In this document: piece by piece, positions 34,236-35,962 of the stretch
Layout: each line of letters begins with the position of its first letter
How positions within the stretch are numbered: position 1 is the stretch's first letter
Assembly (NCBI GenBank): GCA_003216255.1
Contig: QCJD01000004.1
Coordinates: forward strand, 18,854-82,853
Source of the DNA: Pelagibacteraceae bacterium AG-404-N13
GTDB taxonomy: Bacteria; Pseudomonadota; Alphaproteobacteria; Pelagibacterales; Pelagibacteraceae
Length of the DNA stretch: 64,000 nucleotides
Direction: 5' to 3'
The notes under the pieces: generated by a model
Database searches by the model: none
What the model was told of the DNA's origin: nothing
The model's input: the letters and a program-made list of their open reading frames with translations, nothing else
Translations under genes and position numbers: made by a program

Positions 34236-34817
34236 ATGAAGAAATTCATTGCTGGAGTAGATGAAGTTGGTAGAGGCAGTTTAATTGGGCCTGTTTATGC
34301 GGCTGCTGTTATTCTAAAAAAAAAAATTAATAAAAAAGAACTTAAAGATTCAAAAAAATTAAATAAAGCTAGAAGAGAAATTTTATCAAAATATATAAAA
34401 AAAAACTCTACCTGGGCTATTGGTTCAGCCTCTATAAAGGAAATTGAGAAAATTAATATCTTAAACGCAAGTTTATTAGCAATGAAAAGAGCTATTAAAA
34501 AATTAAAAAAAAAACCGACATTAGTCTTAATTGATGGAAATAAAATTCCTGAAATAAAAAATTATAAGATTAAAAGTATTATTAAGGGTGATCAAAAAAT
34601 TTCTGAAATTTCTGCAGCCTCAATAATTGCAAAAGTTTCAAGGGATAATTTAATTACAAATCTATCAAAAAAATTTAAAAAATATGGTTGGTCAAAAAAT
34701 GCCGGCTATGGAACCAAAGATCATATAGATGCAATCAAAAAATACGGGATTACCAAATTACATAGAAAAACCTTCAACCCCATACACAATATATTGAGTC
34801 TTAAAAAATTAAGATAA
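34236..34817 (+). CDS. rnhB: ribonuclease HII
   Basis: AGVDEVGRGSLIGPVYAAAVIL, LIDGN, SAASIIAKVSRDNLI, GYGTKDHIDAIKKYG. Confidence 0.97.
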   Translation: MKKFIAGVDEVGRGSLIGPVYAAAVILKKKINKKELKDSKKLNKARREILSKYIKKNSTWAIGSASIKEIEKINILNASLLAMKRAIKKLKKKPTLVLIDGNKIPEIKNYKIKSIIKGDQKISEISAASIIAKVSRDNLITNLSKKFKKYGWSKNAGYGTKDHIDAIKKYGITKLHRKTFNPIHNILSLKKLR

Positions 34818-34871
34818 CTAAAGATTCAATTTTATTCAATCTCAGGTTGACTGGGACTCTGAGCTGGAGTC

Positions 34872-34895
34872 TAATCATTTTTTATAAAATGATTA
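34872..34895. repeat. perfect 10-bp inverted repeat (TAATCATTTT-TTAT-AAAATGATTA) spanning the ccrM start codon
   Basis: Arms 34872-34881 and 34886-34895 are exact reverse complements; ATG 34889-34891 lies in the right arm. Confidence 0.85.
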
Positions 34896-35962
34896 ACTCA
34901 AAATTATCAAACAGAATAATCAACGGCGATAGTCTCAAAGAATTAAAAAATATTTCAAGTGAAAGTTTTGATTTAATTTTTGCTGACCCTCCCTACAATT
35001 TACAATTAAAAAAAGAATTAAATAGACCTGACTCTTCTAAAGTAAATGCAGTTAACGATGAGTGGGATAAGTTTGAAAGTTTTAAAAGTTATGATGAGTT
35101 TACATTAAATTGGCTAAGTGAATGTAAAAGAATTCTAAAAAAAGATGGAACTATTTGGGTGATTGGTAGTTATCACAATATATTTAGAGTTGGTTGTAAA
35201 ATCCAGGATCTAGGATTTTGGATTTTAAATGATGTTATCTGGAATAAAAATAACCCAATGCCAAATTTTAGAGGAACAAGATTTACAAATGCTCATGAAA
35301 CAATAATTTGGGCTGCCAAAAGTGAAAAATCAAAATATACTTTCAATTATCAATCTCTAAAGTGCTTAAATGATGATCTTCAAATGAGATCTACGTGGAA
35401 CTTGCCCATTTGTAATGGAAATGAAAGATTAAAAAATAATGGAAAAAAAGTTCATTCAACACAAAAACCTGAATCTTTACTTCATAGAATTATTCTAGCA
35501 TCTACATTAAAAAATGACTTAGTTTTAGATCCATTTTTGGGTTCAGGAACTACAGCTGTAGTGTCAAAAAAATTAGGTAGAAATTATCTTGGTATTGAAA
35601 AAGAAAAAAAATACTTTGAAGCAGCTTACAAAAGAATTAAAAATGCTAAGGTTATAGAAGATGAATATTTAGATACTCTGCAGAACAATAAATCAAAGCC
35701 AAGAATACCTTTTGGGTCACTAGTTGAAATGGGAGTAATAAAACCTGGTACCGAGATCTATGATCAGAAGAAAAAGGTAAACGCTAAGATCATGGTTGAT
35801 GGAAGTATTAAACATCAAGAATTTGAGGGATCAATACATAAAATTGCAGCTAAAATTGTAGGTACTGAGAGTTGTAATGGATGGACTTATTGGCATTATC
35901 AGTCTGGAAATTCATTAAAACCGATTGATGAACTAAGACAAAGGCTAAGGTCCAGTAACTAG
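34889..35962 (+). CDS. ccrM: CcrM-type adenine DNA methyltransferase (predicted GANTC specificity)
   Basis: FADPPYNLQL, WVIGSYHNIFRVG, MPNFRGTRFTNAHETIIWA, HSTQKPESLL, DPFLGSGTT, CcrM-type C-terminal extension (PRIPFGSLVEMG...CNGWTYWHYQ); start ATG 34889. Confidence 0.95.
   Translation: MINSKLSNRIINGDSLKELKNISSESFDLIFADPPYNLQLKKELNRPDSSKVNAVNDEWDKFESFKSYDEFTLNWLSECKRILKKDGTIWVIGSYHNIFRVGCKIQDLGFWILNDVIWNKNNPMPNFRGTRFTNAHETIIWAAKSEKSKYTFNYQSLKCLNDDLQMRSTWNLPICNGNERLKNNGKKVHSTQKPESLLHRIILASTLKNDLVLDPFLGSGTTAVVSKKLGRNYLGIEKEKKYFEAAYKRIKNAKVIEDEYLDTLQNNKSKPRIPFGSLVEMGVIKPGTEIYDQKKKVNAKIMVDGSIKHQEFEGSIHKIAAKIVGTESCNGWTYWHYQSGNSLKPIDELRQRLRSSN

Follow-up and report, generated by a model that had tools for sequence, protein, structure and literature searches.

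The window (the whole 64-kb stretch of DNA that was analysed) carries a ribonuclease HII gene, rnhB, followed on the same strand by a methyltransferase gene, ccrM, the two being separated by a 71-bp gap (34818-34888). The first-pass annotation placed four GANTC sites upstream of ccrM, three of them in the gap, and predicted that the downstream gene encodes the GANTC methyltransferase. All four sites are present, beginning at 34796, 34823, 34855 and 34867, with the last three inside the gap. The ccrM product is CcrM-like: it matches NCBIfam model NF050803 with an E value of 5e-173, but falls under the model's cut-off (575 vs 830 bits), and its alignment with the CcrM of PDB entry 6pbd (E 2.5e-137) spans nearly the full length. 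The rnhB gene adjoins ccrM in 28 of 31 class loci and in 67 of 80 named loci. The features of the region are as follows.

34236-34817, + strand: rnhB (ribonuclease HII), the gene upstream of ccrM; open reading frame with a PF01351 match (E 2.6e-42)
34796-34800, unstranded: GANTC site 1 (GAGTC), within rnhB codons and outside the predicted core promoter; only some relatives have one
34823-34827, unstranded: GANTC site 2 (GATTC), putative accessory upstream site; a GANTC lies nearby in 30/47 distinct SAR11 elements
34823-34892, + strand: match to Rfam RF01784, "bablM sRNA" (55.4 bits; gathering score 38), reinterpreted here as the putative ccrM promoter
34835-34851, unstranded: inverted repeat TTCAA-N7-TTGAC spanning the -35 element; TTCAATC and GTTGAC invariant in 47/47
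34847-34852, + strand: predicted -35 element TTGACT; spacing from TTGAC to the last GANTC fixed in 47/47, same element class-wide
34855-34859, unstranded: GANTC site 3 (GACTC), in the spacer; a spacer GANTC is found in 45/47 SAR11 elements and 51/57 class promoters
34867-34871, unstranded: GANTC site 4 (GAGTC), extending into the predicted -10; 15 nt past TTGAC in 47/47, class equivalent at N14
34870-34875, + strand: approximate -10 hexamer TCTAAT, in the register of the class CANNNT; separated from TTGACT by 17 bp, with an invariant T at -7
34889-35962, + strand: ccrM, GANTC adenine methyltransferase, ATG at 34889; PF01555 and RAMA domains, with the NF050803 and 6pbd matches given above

A 10-bp perfect inverted repeat (TAATCATTTT/AAAATGATTA) at 34872-34895, which in RNA would sequester the ccrM start codon, is specific to this genome and is not conserved in relatives.

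GANTC is depleted in the window, with 99 sites observed (one per 646 bp) against 167 +/- 13 in dinucleotide shuffles, in agreement with the depletion published for CcrM-bearing Alphaproteobacteria (PMC3973325). The group upstream of ccrM is the sole case within the window of four sites in 76 bp. Poisson probabilities are 0.019 for such a group anywhere in 64 kb, 7e-6 for four sites in the interval upstream of ccrM specifically, and 2e-4 for at least three sites in the rnhB-ccrM gap. The complete genome of a relative (G026; 1,308,759 bp, 1,586 GANTC) was scanned in stretches, while searches of the genome that contains the window were limited to patterns and families. In G026, three GANTC fall within 60 bp at only four places: upstream of ccrM, in an intergenic region holding an Rfam RF01827 element and, apparently, inside two genes. 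By itself the count is moderate evidence, being only mildly improbable; the evidence from the fixed geometry and the conservation is strong.

Conservation was assessed in 47 distinct SAR11 elements, obtained by a search that permitted distances of 11-20 between TTGAC and [AG]AGTCTA. Alignment of the gap across these relatives revealed that the spacing to the last GANTC is conserved throughout, the distance from TTGAC to GAGTCTAAT ([AG]AGTCTA) being exactly 15 nt in 47/47. The last site reads GAGTC in 46 elements and AAGTC in one, its N always being G. The spacer GANTC begins 3 or 4 nt past TTGAC and its N varies (A28, C14, G2, T1). The end of TCTAAT is 13 nt from the ATG in the window and 12-13 nt from it in 41 of the 47 elements. 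The sequence TTGAC-N15-GANTCTAAT occurs once in the window's own genome, namely upstream of ccrM.

A palindrome, TTCAA-N7-TTGAA/C, is found near every SAR11 ccrM promoter examined (34835-34851 in the window; loci L067, L068, L072 and L117). It overlies the -35 element in the window's genus and lies downstream, in the -10/start region, in other genera, two of which have the variant TTCTA-N7-TTGAA. It looks like a movable candidate operator. As a regulon marker it was discarded: the variants tried have a single intergenic match in G026, at ccrM, so that the palindrome names no regulator.

The arrangement recurs outside SAR11. In other Alphaproteobacteria, TTGAC-N14-GANTC precedes ccrM in 57 of 109 distinct regions, and the bases that follow read ANNNT in 57/57, putting A at -11 and T at -7. 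These 57 promoters (distinct, from the class outside Pelagibacterales, one named Pelagibacteraceae MAG being pooled with them) were chosen solely by TTGAC-N14-GANTC. Because -11 and -7 lie outside the selection, the agreement at these positions independently marks the element as a predicted sigma70 promoter with a 17-bp spacer and a -10 that starts at the last base of GANTC. The class architecture can be written GANT[CANNNT], a GANTC fused to the -10 hexamer, 17 bp from the -35; a second GANTC occupies the spacer in 51 of the 57. Among 31 sister-family and class loci, a GANTC starts exactly 19 nt from the start of TTGAC in 16, compared with 0.00 in dinucleotide shuffles. The looser pattern TTGAC-N13-16-GANTC is found in 45 of 80 named genomes; most of them are Rhodobacterales, and the others include Sphingomonas, Dongia and a Pelagibacteraceae MAG. 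The class geometry is preserved in a sister family of the same order (TTGAC-N14-GAATCATATT), where a third GANTC lies some 20 bp upstream.

In the window's genus the GANTC is displaced by 1 bp relative to the class (N15) and is followed by TAAT. Read in the class register, the SAR11 hexamer TCTAAT retains T at -7 and has an atypical C in place of A at -11; the alternative hexamer TAATCA (TAATNN) would require a 19-bp spacer. For these two reasons the -10 assignment within SAR11 is only approximate and the ccrM promoter looks intrinsically weak. From the predicted promoter, transcription would start at about 34882, some 6 nt before ccrM. Sites 3 and 4 would then form the core promoter, with site 2 accessory and site 1 simply rnhB coding sequence. 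The proposal that the clustered sites serve ccrM control is thus favoured for sites 3 and 4, whose spacing and class-wide recurrence place them in the predicted promoter core, but not for the whole cluster: site 2 has a counterpart in just 30 of the 47 elements, and site 1 belongs to rnhB.

The promoter is nearly confined to ccrM. A strict pattern, TTGAC-N3-GANTC-N6-GANTC-ANNNT, gave 19 matches in 144 whole genomes and none when reversed as a control; 17 of the 19 are on the same strand as ccrM and 41-148 bp upstream of it. The other two are in a single genome (G409; loci L369 and L370), one upstream of a gene for an FtsK-type protein (PF13491) and one upstream of a ribonucleotide-reductase-like reading frame, presumably the large subunit. 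Both genes serve replication or division and are candidates for membership in a co-timed set. The gcrA gene does not appear to share the promoter: in five SAR11 genomes, the 180 bp that precede gcrA contain no GANTC.

Caulobacter GcrA binds to methylated GANTC and brings RNA polymerase to the promoters that carry it (PMC3667746). The window's genome encodes both CcrM and GcrA, the latter at G000:C1:88411-88842 (E 7e-34), with the N-terminal DNA-binding segment and the C-terminal segment both aligning with the solved Caulobacter protein. GcrA is also encoded in 54 of 61 relatives, and in class genomes it accompanies CcrM (36/43 CcrM-positive vs 3/14 CcrM-negative genomes). SAR11 GANTC sites are methylated in vivo with an ori-ter gradient, methylation being lower near the origin (PMC9516812), which is what late action of CcrM in the cell cycle would produce (PMC9516812; PMC12570018).

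The reading that we consider probable is that the element is the sigma70 promoter of ccrM and senses GANTC methylation, most likely through GcrA. The core promoter would comprise TTGAC as the -35, a spacer GANTC and another GANTC that enters the -10, and would yield a near-leaderless mRNA. CcrM should methylate both core sites. Since the methylated adenines would adjoin or lie inside the region of the -10 contacted by sigma70, firing would vary with the state of the locus, be it fully methylated, hemimethylated (newly replicated) or unmethylated, and ccrM expression would report on replication and on the activity of CcrM itself. GcrA, together with sigma70 polymerase at the ccrM -10, is the favoured reader of methylation because of its role in Caulobacter and its presence here and in most relatives. 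Methylation dependence and the part of GcrA in ccrM control are inferred, and the effect could be either activating or repressing. Several observations weigh against this reading: TCTAAT lacks A at -11, the GcrA-dependent mipZ promoter of Caulobacter has two GANTC in a different arrangement, the exact TTGAC-N14-GANTC pattern is missing from roughly half of the class loci, and two sister-family genomes (G232 and G235 of family f2; loci L332 and L333), 99% and 93% complete, have ccrM with the GANTC promoter but no detected GcrA. The last case hints at GcrA-independent use of the promoter or at assembly gaps.

The main rival keeps the same promoter and dispenses with GcrA. N6-methyladenine at the -10 would itself weaken RNA polymerase binding or melting, so that full methylation shuts ccrM off and hemimethylation upon replication reopens it, a negative feedback. 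The fusion of GANTC to the -10 lends itself to such an effect, as do the genomes that retain the promoter with no GcrA detected and the modelling of Caulobacter ccrM as methylation-sensitive and on when hemimethylated (PMC8865702). A -10 as poor as that of SAR11, however, suggests that an activator is needed, and the co-occurrence of GcrA with CcrM is left out of account; we rate this version as rather unlikely, if the strongest of the alternatives.

The interval also falls in an Rfam sRNA family that the first-pass annotation left out of its reading and that must be argued against. RF01784 was described by Meyer et al. 2009 among their less well supported motifs, with no mention of GANTC or promoters (PMC2704228); its name, bablM, is evidently babIM, a methylase gene name. 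If it were a structured RNA, the element would be a cis-regulatory leader or a small RNA acting on ccrM. The sequence is the very element described by Rfam between rnhB and the methylase gene, and it scores above the gathering threshold; its conserved blocks, however, are the predicted -35, the GANTC sites and the -10. RF01784 is matched in 52 of 197 SAR11-family genomes, nearly all of the window's genus, while ccrM is present in 174; other SAR11 genera and other orders retain promoter and GANTC without the hairpins. In the second hairpin, where two GANTC are proposed to pair, the central N-N pair is mismatched in 30 of 45 elements. RNAalifold recovered only the first stem from the 47 SAR11 elements, with a covariation term of 0 and zero two-sided changes, so the proposed base pairs show no compensatory change. 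That the small hairpin exceeds shuffles in stability follows from the mutual complementarity of any two GANTC, and the pair-compatible bases flanking both sites in 42/45 would also result from an RGANTCY preference at each site. The shift of the spacer GANTC between 3 and 4 nt past TTGAC fits a DNA site, as a helix arm should not shift without compensation. Finally, a transcript with the predicted leader of only about 6 nt would exclude the supposed RNA. With no covariation and a class-wide promoter geometry, the RNA reading is rejected as very improbable, and the RF01784 annotation in SAR11 is apparently wrong, the evidence pointing to promoter DNA.

A terminator-like scan match at 34854-34872 raised the possibility that the GACTC/GAGTC hairpin and T-rich DNA form an intrinsic terminator of rnhB, but the stem is mismatched in most relatives, a conserved TAAT and no T run follows, and the class-wide promoter geometry is at odds with it, so that it was discarded as scarcely credible. 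A chance cluster devoid of function, for which a probability of 0.019 somewhere in 64 kb is not extreme, is rendered negligible by the phasing and class-wide conservation (16/31 vs 0.00 in shuffles) and by the genome-wide specificity for ccrM.

Apart from the ccrM upstream region, G026 has one intergenic cluster of three GANTC, which is RF01827 ("SAR11_0636 sRNA"; L182:2437-2526, genome positions 622437-622526); the element is also present in the window's own genome at G000:C12:37497-37587. The spacings of its three GANTC, 12 and 11 bp, are constant in all distinct anchored copies (22/22), and the Rfam hairpin pairs two of these sites around an unpaired N, which resembles bablM. It is possibly another DNA element filed as RNA. 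It also holds a perfect DnaA box, TTATCCACA; identification with oriC was rejected, the GC-skew minimum of G026 being at 307.6 kb and not at 622 kb.

Enterobacteria have promoters that respond to the Dam methylation state of adenines following replication; here the methylase and the site are different, and the gene under control would be that of the methylase itself. Methylation-controlled promoters, GcrA-CcrM control and a Caulobacter ccrM modelled as methylation-sensitive (PMC8865702) are already known. The closest parallels are the GcrA/CcrM sigma70 promoters of Caulobacter crescentus (mipZ, podJ; Fioravanti 2013, PMC3667746), where methylation recruits GcrA and RNA polymerase. They likewise have GANTC in the promoter of an organism encoding both proteins, and the ccrM sites, too, lie at or between -35 and -10. 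The promoter described here differs in having a GANTC fused to its -10 with invariant spacing, a geometry that mipZ with its two GANTC does not share, and in that the gene under control would be ccrM itself. The Caulobacter ccrM promoter also has a GANTC nearby and is held to be methylation-sensitive (PMC8865702), but it is driven by CtrA, of which no ortholog is reported in Pelagibacter (PMC2877005). The parallel with Caulobacter initially drawn is accordingly a partial one: a GANTC near the ccrM promoter is common to both, whereas TTGAC-N13-16-GANTC is absent from the Caulobacter and Phenylobacterium ccrM loci examined, including that of C. vibrioides (L256), which has GACTCatGATTC near the start. 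A Caulobacter-like, CtrA-driven architecture was therefore set aside. In the open-access literature searched, we found no report of GANTC fused to the -10 of ccrM, or of RF01784 as a promoter.

A wider proposal, slightly less likely than not to be right, can be made tentatively: that this is an ancestral alphaproteobacterial epigenetic feedback switch, in which the methylase has its site in its own -10 and sigma70 polymerase, with or without GcrA, would read replication and methylation directly at ccrM, independently of CtrA. The promoter would be nearly private to ccrM, rarely used at ftsK and ribonucleotide reductase genes, and RF01784 would be a misannotated form of it. The GANTC-fused type may predate the CtrA-driven Caulobacter model. 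The reinterpretation would also correct a public RNA family, and it illustrates that a palindromic methylation site may pass for a hairpin when RNA motifs are surveyed. SAR11 bacteria are among the ocean's most abundant cells and have few regulators, yet their GANTC methylation shows the ori-ter gradient. A promoter of the GANTC-fused type, found from SAR11 to Rhodobacterales and Sphingomonas, would offer a concrete and testable mechanism for the timing of CcrM.
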